A stretch of DNA of 64,000 bases from Desulfovibrio sp. UCD-KL4C (GTDB lineage: Bacteria; Desulfobacterota; Desulfovibrionia; Desulfovibrionales; Desulfovibrionaceae): positions 124,001 to 188,000 of the forward strand of contig NZ_VCNC01000003.1 of the NCBI RefSeq assembly GCF_006210265.1, given 5' to 3'. The translations under genes and the position numbers were made by a program. The notes beneath the pieces are model-generated. The model did no database searches. It had not been told where the DNA came from and was given only the letters and a program-made list of their open reading frames with translations. Below are positions 21,551 to 26,680 of this stretch, in pieces. How positions within the stretch are numbered: the stretch's first letter is position 1; each line of letters opens with the position of its first letter.

Positions 21551-22294
21551 ATGCCTGAGAAAGATTTACGAGTTGAATTGTTATCTATGACCCCTAATGC
21601 CCTTGAACTTATCTATGCTTCGTTCAGGCAATGCTATTATGCTGGGTTTACAGCGGATATGTGGCCTAGGCTTATAAGTGGAGAGATTGCAAAGGAAAAG
21701 CAGGATGCCTTTGTCTCCAAGATTCTTGAGTCTGGGCATGACAGTCCTATTGAACATGTTAGTTTTACGTTTGCTGTAGAGGGAATTTCCAGAGCCTGTT
21801 CTCATCAGATCGTAAGGCATCGTATTGCGTCTTATTCGCAGCAGAGCCAGCGTTATGTTGCTGAAAATGATATGGATTACATCATTCCTCCGGCAATTAA
21901 AAAGATTCCTGAAGCGCGTGAACGTTTTGAAAAATTTATGGCAGAAGTTGGATCAGCATACAGTGATCTGCGTGAAATTCTTGTTGCTGCCGGTCGCGAA
22001 AGTAAGGCGAATGAGGATGCCAGATTTGTGCTGCCACAGGCCGCAGAAACGAAGATAGTGATAACTATGAATTGTCGTTCGCTCATGCATTTTTTCAATT
22101 TGCGTTGCTGTCAGCGTGCTCAATGGGAAGTCCGCATTATGGCAGATAAAATGTTAAAGCTTTGCAAAGAAAGTCTGCCGGCAATTTTTCGCAACGGCGG
22201 AGCCAGATGCGAGCAATTGGGTTACTGTCCTGAAGCTGAAAGGTTTGCATGCGGTAAGTATCCAACCTTGAAAGAACTGACTGAAAGGAAGTAG
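21551..22294 (+). CDS. thyX: Flavin-dependent thymidylate synthase ThyX
   Basis: A 247-residue FAD enzyme that methylates dUMP to dTMP using methylenetetrahydrofolate and NADPH. The family signature RHRIASYSQQSQR is at residues 89-101, and the later residues FFNLRCCQRAQWEVR fit the nucleotide-binding C-terminal part. Its presence suggests that classical ThyA is not needed. AAGGAG lies seven bases before the ATG. It is followed by a terminator and then by the long AT-rich region before dnaA. Confidence 0.97.
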   Translation: MPEKDLRVELLSMTPNALELIYASFRQCYYAGFTADMWPRLISGEIAKEKQDAFVSKILESGHDSPIEHVSFTFAVEGISRACSHQIVRHRIASYSQQSQRYVAENDMDYIIPPAIKKIPEARERFEKFMAEVGSAYSDLREILVAAGRESKANEDARFVLPQAAETKIVITMNCRSLMHFFNLRCCQRAQWEVRIMADKMLKLCKESLPAIFRNGGARCEQLGYCPEAERFACGKYPTLKELTERK

Positions 22295-22346
22295 TTACTA
22301 CATTATATATAGCATGCCTAAAAAAATGGTTTTATCGCTCATAATC

Positions 22347-22380
22347 AAGCCTGTCCGGATTTCCTGACAGGCTTTTTTGT
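22347..22380 (+). terminator. Intrinsic terminator after thyX
   Basis: The 9-bp stem AAGCCTGTC/GACAGGCTT (22347-22355 and 22366-22374) has a 10-base loop and is followed by a T-run. Confidence 0.85.
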
Positions 22381-23240
22381 TTTTTTAGCGAGAAAGCGAG
22401 GTCGCAAGGGTTTTTAAAAAAGTTTTTCTACTCATTTTTATTTGTATGCGAAAAATTTTATCTTTTTTTTAAATTTAAATTTAAATTTAAATTTATTAAT
22501 TATTATACGTTATAAGTAATAAAACGTGTTTTGGATACTTTTTTAGCAATTTTGTTATATAATATTGCAAATTTGTAGTATTTAATCCCACCTTATTAGT
22601 CTGTATTTTCAACATAAATTTTATTTAAAAAATTAAGATGTGGATAGAATTTTATTCAGACTCGACTATTGTAATTTTTCAGCTGCATAATACGTTGGTT
22701 TATAGGCCTTACGAGATGTCAAGTATATCTTAATTCAATTAAATAAGATGTTTGTTAAATGTTCTAAATTTTAAGTCCTATAATCCCTTTGTTTTATTGG
22801 GCTCAGCTCAATGTTATTTAAACAATGGTTTTTATAAGTTATTTGTGATTTGAATATTATTTTAAAAAAAAGTATGTTATATATGGTGTTTATGTGTGTA
22901 AATGTTGTTTTGAGTCTCAAAAATGAAAAATATTATAATGAGTAGTAATTTTACTGACAGTGAGGAAAACTGCGTAATTTTATGAAAAAAAGATAAAAAT
23001 TAGAATTAGCCTGTGGAAAAAGTTTTCAACAGTTGTTTATAATAATGATATTGACAGTCGTCAGCCCAAGAAACATGCAGGTTTGTAGGATTGCAATTAT
23101 CTGGCTATAAATGCTTATGTACCAAAAAAGAATAAATAAATTAATATGTTATCTTGTAGAAAAACATAGGGCGTACATCGGGAGCTCAGTGCTATATTAC
23201 GAGTTGATGTAGTGTTGTTCTTTGTCTTAGTTATCGCTTC
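22381..23240. other. AT-rich gene-free region before dnaA, candidate replication origin
   Basis: About 860 bases carry no plausible gene. Sites close to the DnaA box TTATCCACA are seen: TGTGGATAG at 22639-22647 and TGTGGAAAA at 23012-23020 (both on the complement strand), and TTTTCAACA at 22606-22614 and 23023-23031. The last pair stands 2 bases apart in opposite orientation, a tight cluster 210 bases before dnaA. A very AT-rich tract with TTTAAA repeats lies at 22461-22510 and could be the unwinding element. Placement beside dnaA fits a bacterial oriC, but no dnaN or gyrB follows, so a second dnaA locus rather than the true origin is possible. Confidence 0.5.
22471..22494. repeat. AAATTT hexamer tandem repeat
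   Basis: Four perfect AAATTT units follow a run of eight T and continue into ATTATTAATTATTATA. This is the most A/T-pure stretch of the region before dnaA, with no G or C from 22463 to 22507, and is a natural candidate for a DNA-unwinding element. Confidence 0.8.
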
Positions 23241-24590
23241 ATGATTACAGACAGCTGGAACAAAATTTTAAAATTTCTCGAGAAAGGGCTTAACCCCGGC
23301 CTATTCAAAGTTTGGATTAAACCTTTGAAGGCTGAAGTTAGTAATAACATCATTAAGCTATATGCTCCGAATGAATTTGTTGCTGCGTGGGTTAGAGACC
23401 GACTTTTAGACAGTATTACCGAGGCCGGAACTCAGGTTCTAGGATCGCGCCCAAAAGTTGATGTTGGTGTTAAAAAAGTTGCAGATAAACCTGCTGGTTT
23501 AGTCCGCCCTAAAAGTCCGCAACAGGTGCAAACAAGCATGGGACTTCCCATGATGCGTCCGTCGGTAACGGCTAGAGTTCCACGTTGGCGCTTTTCGTTT
23601 GATGACTTTGTCGTTGGAGACTCTAATCAGTTGGCATGTGCTGCTTCGAGAAGTCTTTGTGATAATTCCTTACCTGGAGATCAGCTGTTCCTCAGTTCTA
23701 CTCCTGGTCTTGGAAAAACTCATTTACTGCATTCGATCGGTCAGGGACTCTGTGCTACCAGTAATAAACAGCATGTTTCCATTGCCTGCCTTACAGCTGA
23801 AGAATTTGCCAATAGAATGGTTATGGCTCTTAAAGCCGGTGAAATATCAAGGTTTAAATCCGAATTCAGAGAGAATGTTGATTGTCTTCTTCTTGAGGAT
23901 GTTCATTTTTTTCAGGGCAAGCACAAGATGCAGGATGAGATTCTTGAAACTTTGAAATGCTTGCAGTTGCGCGGCTCAAAAGTTGTTATGACAAGTTCTT
24001 TTCTACCTCGCGAACTTGAAAAAGTTGACCCGCAGTTGGTGTCCAGATTTTGTTCAGGACTTTTAGCTGTTATAGCAACTCCTGACTTTGAGACCAGAAA
24101 ACGCATTGTGCAGAGCAAAGCTACCCGTCTTGGGACTCAGGTACCTGATTCTATCTCGGAGCTGCTAGCAGACCGTATTACAACCGATGTGCGCCAACTT
24201 GAAAGTTGTTTGCAGAACCTTGTGCTCAAAGCAAGGTTGCTTAATAGAAATTTGACACAGGAACTGGCTTGGCAGGTTCTTGAAAATTATTCTGTTACAA
24301 ATAAAAACCCAAGTTATGATTCAATTGTTGAGCACATTTGTCGTTCTTATGACCTTTCAGCTGATCAGCTTCGCTCCAAAAGCCGGAAACGTCAGATTGT
24401 TTTAGCCAGAAATACAGCTTTCTTCCTCGCTCGCAAATATACTGAACTCTCCTTGAAAGATATTGGAGTAAGACTCGGTCGCAGGCATTCAACAGTGATT
24501 AAAGGCATCACTAATATTGAACGGGAAATTTCTTTACAAACTCCTCTTGGAAGGCAGTTGCAGGATACTGTCGCTCGCTTGACACCATAG
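23241..24590 (+). CDS. dnaA: Chromosomal replication initiator DnaA (divergent motifs)
   Basis: A 449-residue DnaA with all four domains: domain I (1-75, including APNEFVAAWV), a short linker, AAA+ domain III (about 115-345) and domain IV (about 358-449). Motifs differ from the textbook. Walker A is S153-TPGLGKT, with Ser replacing the first Gly. Walker B is LLLED (E219-D220) instead of DD. The arginine finger VSRF (R269) and sensor II (DVRQLE, about 316-321) are intact. The domain IV signature is GRRHSTVIKG, one residue shorter than GGRDHTTV. This combination is consistent with the Desulfovibrio branch as remembered, not checked. Its start lacks a visible ribosome binding site. It lies directly before the ATPase-less DnaA-like gene. 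Confidence 0.93.
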   Translation: MITDSWNKILKFLEKGLNPGLFKVWIKPLKAEVSNNIIKLYAPNEFVAAWVRDRLLDSITEAGTQVLGSRPKVDVGVKKVADKPAGLVRPKSPQQVQTSMGLPMMRPSVTARVPRWRFSFDDFVVGDSNQLACAASRSLCDNSLPGDQLFLSSTPGLGKTHLLHSIGQGLCATSNKQHVSIACLTAEEFANRMVMALKAGEISRFKSEFRENVDCLLLEDVHFFQGKHKMQDEILETLKCLQLRGSKVVMTSSFLPRELEKVDPQLVSRFCSGLLAVIATPDFETRKRIVQSKATRLGTQVPDSISELLADRITTDVRQLESCLQNLVLKARLLNRNLTQELAWQVLENYSVTNKNPSYDSIVEHICRSYDLSADQLRSKSRKRQIVLARNTAFFLARKYTELSLKDIGVRLGRRHSTVIKGITNIEREISLQTPLGRQLQDTVARLTP

Positions 24591-24707
24591 TAATACGTTC
24601 ACAGTTTTTGTTTTTTTGCTTTAAGGATATTCATTGCATCCGGCGTTGATTTATCGTAAGACCAGCCCCCTTGTTTTAAACTGAAACGAAACTTTCAGGG
24701 GTAGGAA

Positions 24708-25412
24708 ATGAATTCCGATTTGTGGCACTCGATTAAGAAAAAATTAAAGGTCCGCATTAATCCTGTTCTGGTAAAAGTATGGGTAGATCCCCTTTCTGCC
24801 AGATATGAAGATGGTGTAGTCCAAATTACTGCGCCTAATGAATTTGTGATGAATTGGGTACAAGAGCATCTTTTAGGAACAATAAAAGATGCGGCTCAGG
24901 AAGTTCTTTCCACTGAAGTGGGTGTTACTATAGCTCTTCAGAATAATGAAAAAGGTGAGCTGGAAGAGACTGAATTCATTACGGATGTAACAGCATATTA
25001 TGCTGTGGAAGATATCTTGAACAGTATTAATCGAATGAAAAATATTGTTCATAATCGGTACGGAATAAGTCCTACTGAATTTCCCGATCTGAATGAGGAA
25101 GAAGCTTTACCTGAGATTAAACTTGAAGATCAATCATTTGATTCAATTCTGGACGCTGTTTTAGAAGCTTTTACCGTTACTTTCAGAGAGATGATGGAAC
25201 AGCAAACTGACCATGCAGCTCTTGCCAGACGGGTTTTGTACTATCTTTGCTTTAGATATAGTATTCCTCCTGAAGAGGTTGCTTTAAATATGGATTGTAC
25301 TGTTTCCGATGTTAAAGCCGGAGCAGCTGAACTTGAAGAAGAAATTGAGTTCGCAATAGATAACGGTCATAATTTGGACGATCTACTTTTGAGACTTTTC
25401 AAAAAAGATTAA
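24708..25412 (+). CDS. DnaA-like protein with domains I and IV but no AAA+ domain
   Basis: A 234-residue protein. Residues 1-70 match DnaA domain I of the gene just upstream (shared INPxLxKVWxxPL and APNEFVxxWV). Residues about 143-212 align without gaps of note to DnaA domain IV (FDSILDAV, ALARRVLYYLCFRYS, then EEVALNMDCTVSDV), but the DNA-contact signature RRHSTV is replaced by DCTVSDV. The entire ATPase domain is missing and a 70-residue acidic linker stands in its place. It cannot be an initiator by itself. It might pair with DnaA through domain I and modulate initiation; this is inference. AGGGGTAGG precedes the ATG. It begins 118 bases after dnaA and ends at a shared terminator. Confidence 0.85.
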   Translation: MNSDLWHSIKKKLKVRINPVLVKVWVDPLSARYEDGVVQITAPNEFVMNWVQEHLLGTIKDAAQEVLSTEVGVTIALQNNEKGELEETEFITDVTAYYAVEDILNSINRMKNIVHNRYGISPTEFPDLNEEEALPEIKLEDQSFDSILDAVLEAFTVTFREMMEQQTDHAALARRVLYYLCFRYSIPPEEVALNMDCTVSDVKAGAAELEEEIEFAIDNGHNLDDLLLRLFKKD

Positions 25413-25439
25413 TATTTTATGTATGTTAAAATGACTTTT

Positions 25440-25472
25440 AAAAGGTCTGACTACTTGTAGTCAGACCTTTTT
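25440..25472. terminator. Bidirectional terminator between the DnaA-like gene and the PhoH gene
   Basis: A perfect 15-bp stem (AAAAGGTCTGACTAC with its complement, four-base loop) is flanked by T on the right and A on the left, between converging genes. Confidence 0.92.
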
Positions 25473-25489
25473 GGTTTTGGGTAAGAAAT

Positions 25490-26680
25490 TTAAAGGCCGC
25501 TTTTGATCACCATATCCGTAATCGGTCCTCGTGACTTTTCACCTTTAAGGACCATGTGTGCGTATTCTTTATTGTTTTTAAGCTTCTTGACTACCCAGTT
25601 GAGTCCGTTGTTGCTCTCATTGAGATATGGGTTGTCAACCTGCCGGGTATCTCCAAGGCATAAGCATTTGACCCCTTCCCCCATACGCGTAAGCATGGCA
25701 CGGACTTCTGCCCGAGACATGTTCTGCATCTCATCGATTATTACAATACAGTTGTCCAGGTTCATGCCTCGAATATAGGCTATAGGTAGAATTTCAAATT
25801 TCTTTTGGTTAAAGCGGTATTGGTCAGAATCGTTGTCTAAAAAAATTCTGTTTGCTGGTCGTTGTTCGTGCAATTTTACCGCTAAATCTTTTATATAACG
25901 TGTGTAAGGTTGCATCTTTTCTTCTACATTACCGGGCAGAAAACCCATTTTTGCACCGATTTCCCAAATAGGTTTCACCAGATAAACTTTTTCATATGGG
26001 TTATCTTTTTTTTCAAGAGCTAAGTATAAGGCCGAGGCTAAAGCTAGAAATGTTTTTCCGTATCCAGCTTCTGACTGAATTGAGACAAGATTTATGTCAT
26101 TGTTAAGCATCAGTTCAAGAGCAAGATTTTGATAAATGTTTCTAGGTTTAACACCCCATACATTGTGTGTGTATGATATTTGTTTATTTCCGTCTGCTCC
26201 ATAAAAAATAGGTGTACCGTTTTCCCAGCGAAAGCAGTTGGTAATGGGGGCTTCACCTTCTTCAATAAATCCAGTGTACAGTTGAGAGTCAGAACGGAAC
26301 GGGTTGGAATCTTTGTATCCTTCACATTTCAGATTGTATAAACCTGCTTTAATTTGAAGGATGCGATCATTTGTTACGAGAATAGGTTCTTCAATTTCAC
26401 TGTGGAATGTTTCTTTAAGTATGCGGTCATCGGCTGTACCATCTGTAAGTGTTTCTGCAAATTCGGGCCTGAAGACAGTGAGAAGGTCATCGTTTAAAAT
26501 TAATTTAACTGCCTGCGCTACAATGTGTCCGACACGGGGGTCCCGCTTAAGTTTGTCCAGTTCCGTCAGTACGGTGTACGGGATGTGAATTTTGTTTTCC
26601 ACCCCGTTTCTAAGAGTTGCAATGCATTTAGGATTTTCAATAAGCACATTTGTGTCTAATACAAAGTTCTTCTGTCCCAT
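25490..26680 (-). CDS. PIN-PhoH fusion: RNase and AAA ATPase
   Basis: A 396-residue protein. The N-terminal PIN nuclease domain (about 1-135) starts with NFVLDTNVLIENP and has LTELDKLK. It is joined to a PhoH-type P-loop ATPase with Walker A SEAGYGKT and Walker B CIVIIDEMQN, then GDTRQVDNPYL. Such PhoH2-type proteins are reported RNA helicase/ribonucleases in other bacteria. No antitoxin-like gene precedes it, so it stands alone here. The ATG is preceded by a GAGG-like site on the complement strand, about seven bases away (GAGGTCTTATG). Confidence 0.93.
   Translation of the reverse strand: MGQKNFVLDTNVLIENPKCIATLRNGVENKIHIPYTVLTELDKLKRDPRVGHIVAQAVKLILNDDLLTVFRPEFAETLTDGTADDRILKETFHSEIEEPILVTNDRILQIKAGLYNLKCEGYKDSNPFRSDSQLYTGFIEEGEAPITNCFRWENGTPIFYGADGNKQISYTHNVWGVKPRNIYQNLALELMLNNDINLVSIQSEAGYGKTFLALASALYLALEKKDNPYEKVYLVKPIWEIGAKMGFLPGNVEEKMQPYTRYIKDLAVKLHEQRPANRIFLDNDSDQYRFNQKKFEILPIAYIRGMNLDNCIVIIDEMQNMSRAEVRAMLTRMGEGVKCLCLGDTRQVDNPYLNESNNGLNWVVKKLKNNKEYAHMVLKGEKSRGPITDMVIKSGL

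Follow-up and report, generated by a model that had tools for sequence, protein, structure and literature searches.

A short, AAA+-less DnaA2 paralogue with a charge-inverted domain IV-like end: a putative modulator of the second DnaA in Desulfovibrionaceae

Introduction

Domain I of DnaA is the module through which the protein makes contact with further DnaA copies and with helicase or regulators. In a 64,000-nucleotide stretch of DNA from Desulfovibrio sp. UCD-KL4C (contig NZ_VCNC01000003.1, positions 124,001 to 188,000; hereafter the window), a dnaA gene is followed on the same strand by a short gene whose product resembles DnaA at both of its ends and has no ATPase in between. The locus raises the question of what such a protein does beside a complete DnaA, which DnaA its neighbor is, and from which DnaA it descends. 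The short protein represents a natural separation of the domain I contacts of DnaA from its ATPase and DNA-binding functions. The features of the region are collected in Table 1.

Table 1. Features of the thyX–dnaA2–short gene region (positions are those of the window).
Feature	Position	Strand	Remarks
AT-rich intergenic region thyX–dnaA2	22295..23240	+	946 bp, 27% GC
Inverted DnaA-box-like pair TGTGGAAAA-AG-TTTTCAACA	23012..23031	.	209 bp before dnaA2
dnaA2, second DnaA paralogue	23241..24590	+	449 aa; domains I, III, IV; not the origin-linked DnaA
Likely ribosome-binding site of short gene	24697..24705	+	by eye; similar G-rich stretch ahead of ortholog starts
Short DnaA-like protein gene	24708..25412	+	ATG start, 234 aa, without AAA+ domain
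Domain I of short protein, residues 1-78, KH-like fold	24708..24941	+	PF11638 E 3e-15; 4tps_B Z 13.9
Acidic variable linker, residues 79-141, net charge about -11	24942..25130	+	4/63 positions invariant
Charge-inverted domain IV-like domain, residues 142-234	25131..25409	+	hhalign and structure comparison
Former DNA-recognition helix region VALNMDCTVSDV, residues 191-202, replacing the DnaA2 RRHSTV region	25278..25313	+	
Intrinsic-terminator-like hairpin after short gene	25440..25471	+	14 pairs

Results

The short protein combines DnaA domain I with a domain IV fold

Residues 4–65 of the short protein match the Pfam family DnaA_N (PF11638) at E 3e-15, with 56.1 bits against a cut-off of 24.6. 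In the same scan the AAA+ family PF00308 gave no match up to E 1 (DnaA2, the product of the upstream gene, matches it at E 1.5e-37), and comparison of the linker with profiles of DnaA2 or of the origin-linked DnaA1 revealed no AAA+ remnant (probability ≤0.6). The TIGR00362 DnaA equivalog model scored below its cut-off, reaching 41.1 of 343.9 bits over residues 6–87 only. Within the linker, one semi-conserved helix is predicted with low confidence at residues 100–118.

At the C-terminus, Bac_DnaA_C aligned with residues 145–184 below threshold (19.4 of 31.5 bits, E 0.0011), as it also did in the short genes of four of six related genomes (15.6–17.9 bits). A sequence search of solved structures with the ortholog profile recovered domain I, with 2e0g as the best match (E 7.7e-07). 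Up to E 10 it returned nothing for domain IV, and two other rows, with E 1.4 and 1.6, are chance-like. The assignment of domain IV is based on profile–profile and structural evidence and not on a simple sequence match. When the C-terminal domains of the short proteins were compared by hhalign with domain IV of 20 DnaA2 proteins, the score was 51.2 (probability 96), whereas 50 column-shuffled versions peaked at 20.5 against the same DnaA2 profile. An AlphaFold2 model built on the 17-row ortholog alignment gave block-mean pLDDT values of 64–77 for domain I (residues 1–78) and 81–94 for residues 141–210, with lower values beyond and mostly below 50 in the linker. In VIA-align superpositions, the modeled domain I matched its counterpart in B. 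subtilis DnaA (4tps_B; Z 13.9, 1.2 Å, 78 residues). Residues 142–232 superimposed on M. tuberculosis DnaA domain IV (3pvp_A; Z 11.2, 2.6 Å, 84 residues), and the C-terminus likewise on E. coli domain IV (1j1v_A; Z 10.9, 2.7 Å, 83 residues) and on B. subtilis DnaA (8btg_A; Z 11.1, 3.0 Å, 87 residues); for helical folds, middling Z values can arise by chance. With Foldseek alone, 3pvp_A was matched at E 0.01 with probability 1.00. A second model, started from the most divergent ortholog and using the same 17 rows, placed residues 149–244 of that protein on 3pvp_A at Z 11.2, on 1j1v_A at 11.0 and on 8btg_B at 11.2.

Taken together, the profile comparison and the two predicted models confirm a DnaA domain IV fold at the C-terminus. 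The initial annotation had described a DnaA domain I and a domain IV-like end separated by an acidic linker in place of the ATPase, and had named structure prediction as the check on that end; this description holds. One detail does not, as the INP motif said to be shared with the upstream DnaA reads LNP in the latter.

The adjacent dnaA is a second paralogue located away from the origin

The DnaA encoded in the window matches DnaA_N, Bac_DnaA and Bac_DnaA_C well above cut-off and reaches 337.1 bits with TIGR00362, slightly under the cut-off of 343.9. The genome contains two DnaA domain IV matches above cut-off: DnaA2 in the window, and DnaA1 on contig 7, which adjoins dnaN, gyrB and gyrA (neighbors identified by eye from the open reading frames). 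In a complete genome of the same genus (G117), sampling of the GC skew gave negative values from 2.14 Mb onward and a change of sign between 4.231 and 4.241 Mb. DnaA1 maps there to 4.235 Mb; DnaA2, at 3.548 Mb, is 687 kb from the skew flip and DnaA1. The distance between the two genes was 525–736 kb in all six genomes examined. Because DnaA1 sits by dnaN and at the skew flip, the dnaA of the window is the second, non-origin paralogue. The short gene thus lies beside a dnaA, as first described, and this dnaA is dnaA2 and not the origin-linked gene, which is found next to dnaN-gyrB-gyrA on another contig. The box-like pair and the AT-rich leader in front of dnaA2 had prompted consideration of an oriC at this position, which was rejected: in G117 both flanks of dnaA2 have negative skew (3.42 and 3.64 Mb), and the sign changes at dnaA1.

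Two DnaA proteins are usual in Desulfovibrionaceae. In a sample of 99 genomes, some of them incomplete, two DnaA domain IV matches were present in 82, one in 15 and none in 2. The Walker A motif PGLGKTH is found in 32 of 32 DnaA2 proteins and the Walker B residues ED in 31 of 32. The box-reading signature is R[RKT]HSTV in all 32 DnaA2s and KDH[ST]TV in five of five DnaA1s; judged by such motifs, an altered box specificity of the DnaA2 lineage is possible. The DnaA1 of the window's genome gave no DnaA_N match at E 0.001, a family matched by both the short protein and DnaA2. Its region contains two consensus DnaA boxes in 19 kb as compared with 2.7 by chance, and in G117 the surroundings of the skew flip at DnaA1 revealed no clustering of DnaA boxes; oriC may use other boxes.

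The control region of dnaA2 and transcription of the pair

In all 12 regions examined within the genus, the thyX–dnaA2 gap measures 865–1074 bp with 26–37% GC. When at most one mismatch is allowed, each of six genomes has a single copy of the inverted box-like pair, located before dnaA2, with no control matches, and TGTGGAAAA is found in nine of 11 non-duplicate thyX–dnaA2 regions. In other genera at least one box-like site lies 46–231 bp before dnaA2 in 20 of 20 regions, as scored with a loose pattern over up to 700 bp and without a shuffle control. The sequence TGTTCTAAA at 22760–22768 is invariant in all 11 aligned thyX–dnaA2 regions. The locus thereby points to a second DnaA that is conserved in Desulfovibrionaceae and has a signature of its own as well as a separate control region containing DnaA-box-like sites.

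A terminator scan detected no site in the dnaA2–short gene gap; over the stretch scanned it counted four terminator-like sites as against 2.3 expected from shuffles. The two genes are separated by 109 to 326 bp across the genus; given a spacing as wide as 326 bp in certain species, a separate promoter for the short gene is possible. The count of consensus promoters over the region, 14 as compared with 8.9 expected, was given no weight, and an Rfam search of 22200–25600 gave one sub-threshold match, at the terminator, which was taken as chance. An element beginning GGATATTCATTGCATCCGG... at 24625–24659 within the gap can be recognized by visual inspection in about nine of the 12 gaps aligned; it is possibly a promoter or processing site.

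A full-length short gene accompanies dnaA2 throughout the genus

Each of the 17 genomes of the genus has a full-length ortholog behind dnaA2, in the same orientation. The order thyX–dnaA2–short gene was seen in all 12 fetched regions, and the positions in the other five fit the same order. Searches with the 17-row profile gave, among the matches listed, no full-length match in the other 271 of 288 genomes of the family, the other 331 of 348 of the order, or, in a sample of the phylum, the other 394 of 395 genomes, at least 16 of which belong to the family; the family and order negatives are based on the listed rows ordered by E-value together with the best E of every matching genome. The best match outside the genus (E 2.5e-21) is a domain I within a 487-aa frame. 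The conserved pairing with dnaA that the initial annotation had looked for across Desulfovibrionaceae is therefore seen in the genus, within the bounds of the matches listed, and not in the family at large. In 20 regions from 14 other genera dnaA2 was present in all and no open reading frame was assigned to the short protein in any, which argues that DnaA2 has no general need of it.

A short-pattern scan of named contigs, which tells little on distant relatives, returned only two loci, both in the genus. Short frames outside the genus (in G003, G033, G129 and two in G551) were rejected as orthologs since all are located at contig ends and represent cut genes. A horizontal or mobile origin of the short gene was also rejected: tblastn gave no match among plasmids and one weak match among phages (34.6% identity over 22% of the query, E 9e-3), a viral-contig scan gave 44 pattern matches and no confirmed relative, and the best PHROGs hit had an E of 0.017.

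Domain IV has lost its DNA contacts and inverted its charge

E. coli DNA-contact sites were mapped onto the short protein by way of DnaA2 and of E. coli residue numbering. In E. coli domain IV, Arg399 of a loop enters the minor groove and the helix comprising residues 434–451 reads the box (available text of PMC5742627). In the short protein, acidic or neutral residues take the place of the corresponding basic loop of DnaA2, SKSRKRQ (the window has EQQ-TDH, shorter by one residue), and all 17 orthologs have CTVS[DE][VI] instead of RRHSTV. Both of the features by which DnaA-box contact was assessed, the basic loop with Arg399 and the [RK]xH[ST]TV signature, are missing. Loss of the signature had been recognized from the window sequence, albeit with RRHSTV set against DCTVSDV; an ungapped alignment pairs it with CTVSDV. 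The net charge of domain IV is −13 to −7 in the short orthologs (mean −10.6, n=17), as compared with +4 to +10 in 37 DnaAs (means of +7.75, +6.4 and +7 in sets of 12, 20 and 5).

Invariant positions among the 17 orthologs number 45 of 93 in domain IV, 33 of 78 in domain I and four of 63 in the linker; within the former recognition helix region, nine of 12 are invariant. Fixation of an altered recognition helix is expected of a new binding surface and not of decay. Such a surface might be directed at DNA itself, with domain IV re-purposed as a DNA binder of new specificity and the short protein acting as a transcription factor for the locus. The retained helix-turn-helix fold and the fixed recognition helix would suit this reading, but a mean net charge of −10.6 and the lost basic loop are hard to reconcile with DNA binding, and we consider it very improbable.

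The short gene is under purifying selection. Over six pairs its whole-gene dN/dS is 0.055–0.155, in most of them two to four times that of dnaA2 (0.027–0.052 in five pairs, with no nonsynonymous change in the sixth), several of the dS values being near saturation. Domain I gave values of 0 to 0.086 in the six pairs; for the linker the ratio rose to about 1 in two close pairs, where changes are few. The dN of domain I was lower than that of domain IV in three of the six pairs, equal in one and higher in two. Loss of the AAA+ domain and the DNA contacts, together with a variable linker whose dN/dS is near 1 in those two close pairs, could also describe a decaying or non-functional duplicate of dnaA2. 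That the frame is open in all 17 genomes, with whole-gene dN/dS in the above range and altered residues that are fixed and not drifting, contradicts decay and makes it scarcely credible.

Domain I retains its contact residues

Trp6, Trp25, Pro43, Glu45, Phe46 and Trp50 of domain I are invariant in the 17 short orthologs, and position 44 is Asn or Ser. Position 21 is Leu in all 17 and in the DnaA2 of the window, and Glu in E. coli. In E. coli DnaA, Trp6 serves domain I self-association and Phe46 binds DnaB and DiaA (available text of PMC5742627); the corresponding patch on B. subtilis domain I is the SirA site and lies near the HobA and DiaA sites (PMC4285326, in the portion accessible). The Trp6/Trp25 spacing is present in 31 of 32 DnaA2s and, as judged by eye, absent from five DnaA1 N-termini, which favors DnaA2 as the partner of the short protein.

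A different partner from DnaA2 is just as conceivable for domain I. The short protein might act as a decoy for the domain I clients of both DnaA1 and DnaA2, taking up helicase or a regulator and damping initiation at oriC without touching DnaA2. The strong constraint on domain I (dN/dS 0 to 0.086 in six pairs) and the retained PNEF..W patch are consistent with a decoy, whereas selection on the altered domain IV (45 of 93 positions invariant; dN no higher than that of domain I in three of six pairs) and the strict link to dnaA2 would be left unexplained, and the domain Is of five DnaA1s are very different. We regard this alternative as decidedly unlikely.

Both ends of the short protein derive from the DnaA2 side

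Profile scores for domain I of the short proteins were 150.5 with DnaA2 of other genera (20 rows), 103.5 with DnaA2 of the genus (12 rows) and 40.2 with DnaA1; for domain IV they were 51.2, 41.4 and 21.8, respectively. The DnaA1 profile contains only five rows, so part of the difference between DnaA2 and DnaA1 may reflect profile depth. Trees of each domain were built from 54 rows, comprising 17 short proteins, DnaA2 from 12 of the 17 genomes of the genus and from 20 others, and five DnaA1s, with two duplicate loci dropped. The 17 short proteins form one group in both trees (100/99 and 100/100), on the DnaA2 side. In the domain I tree the group joins one outside DnaA2 (85/88), with a long-branch warning, and in the domain IV tree it joins four outside DnaA2s with starred support. 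Neither tree sets the short proteins beside the DnaA2 of their own genus, and the two domains disagree on placement.

Descent from the DnaA2 lineage, and not from DnaA1, is well supported by these sequence comparisons. The simplest origin is duplication with loss of the AAA+ part, in agreement with the derivation proposed in the initial annotation and with the parent now placed on the DnaA2 side; alternatively, the gene may have been transferred from another DnaA2 line.

Discussion

A putative modulator of DnaA2

We propose that the short protein is an AAA+-less, non-DNA-binding DnaA2 paralogue that modulates DnaA2, on balance negatively, and assign this reading a probability of about 45%. We infer DnaA2 to be the partner because the short gene is strictly paired with dnaA2 and its product has a domain I of the DnaA2 kind. 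The protein would be expressed from the gene that immediately follows dnaA2, probably in part or in full from a shared transcript. Without an ATPase, it would be expected to form no DnaA filaments, and its acidic domain IV should not bind or hold DnaA boxes in the known way. Its domain I could pair with DnaA2 via the Trp6 face or, alternatively, occupy the domain I client patch (PNEF..W), and the acidic domain IV could shield, or compete for, the basic DNA-binding domain of DnaA2. A more specific form of the proposal, possible though on the whole doubtful, would have the short protein act as an internal antagonist, in which the charge-inverted domain IV, as a DNA mimic, covers the surface by which DnaA2 binds DNA and domain I is paired with DnaA2, and the two genes together would form a DnaA-box-controlled switch away from oriC.

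The effect on DnaA2 might instead be positive. As a non-catalytic helper, the short protein could bring helicase or another domain I client to DnaA2–DNA complexes, in the manner of a tethered DiaA or HobA. The client patch has been kept and the pairing with dnaA2 is strict (17 of 17), and the patch on which the activators HobA and DiaA act is almost that of the inhibitor SirA (PMC4285326, accessible portion). An acidic domain IV, however, gives no obvious help to the formation of a DNA complex, and DnaA2 does without the short protein in the 20 regions from other genera, if it is active there; we judge a helper unlikely. Negative modulation of DnaA2 is the reading that we prefer.

Comparison with known systems

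Among the papers that could be searched, we found no described protein with domains I and IV and no AAA+ part, no paper on Maridesulfovibrio and dnaA or on DVU2252/DVU0001, and no study of a second Desulfovibrionaceae DnaA. Two dnaA genes within one gene cluster are described in another bacterium (available part of PMC4403523). DnaA_N domains outside full DnaA include those of the Rickettsia plasmid protein DALP and of Orientia DnaA_N open reading frames (available parts of PMC4316617 and PMC10732058), and plasmids of Rickettsia felis carry copies of DnaA_N proteins (PMC1800911, likewise in part). In the portions of these sources available to us, DALP has DnaA_N in its C-terminal region, is otherwise variable and is encoded by plasmid or mobile-element genes, and domain IV goes unmentioned; the short protein, by contrast, is chromosomal with conserved neighbors, has an N-terminal DnaA_N (residues 4–65) together with domain IV, and falls outside the DALP definition. 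Residues 6–88 also match NF005206/PRK06672, an NCBIfam hypothetical protein (E 3e-06, 26.4 bits), but this 341-position model has another layout and a cut-off of 416 bits, and the short protein scores far below it.

SirA, HobA and DiaA bind domain I and are not known to derive from DnaA. Here the putative regulator itself bears domain I, unlike those three proteins, which regulate DnaA by binding to that domain (PMC4285326, accessible portion). The short protein could also be a DNA mimic, its charge inversion being seen and its competition with DNA putative. QnrB, which has a pentapeptide-repeat fold, is unrelated to the short protein, and the two share the idea of DNA mimicry acting on DnaA. 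QnrB is described as a DNA-mimic protein that binds DnaA and raises its affinity for single-stranded oriC fragments (available text of PMC6617969).

DnaA2 has domain I and the domain IV fold in common with the short protein and is the best-scoring relative of both of its ends; the short protein differs in having no AAA+ domain, an acidic domain IV with lost DNA contacts and half the length. Hda consists of the AAA+ part alone and is a negative regulator. It is a DnaA-related regulator of full-length E. coli DnaA, and residues of DnaA domains I and IV are tied to its action (available text of PMC5742627). Neither the Hda model TIGR03420 nor AAA+ matched the short protein up to E 1. A search for Hda in five genomes gave no match above cut-off in any, with the control above cut-off in only one of 14. 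A third, weaker Hda/DnaA-like AAA+ match (45.7 bits) occurs in a 427-aa frame at G000:C2:231515-232045, and weak matches of 29.7–39.8 bits occur in four other genomes. In contrast to Hda, the short protein keeps both of the other folded DnaA domains and drops the AAA+ part; it is the complement of Hda, with everything except the AAA+ part.
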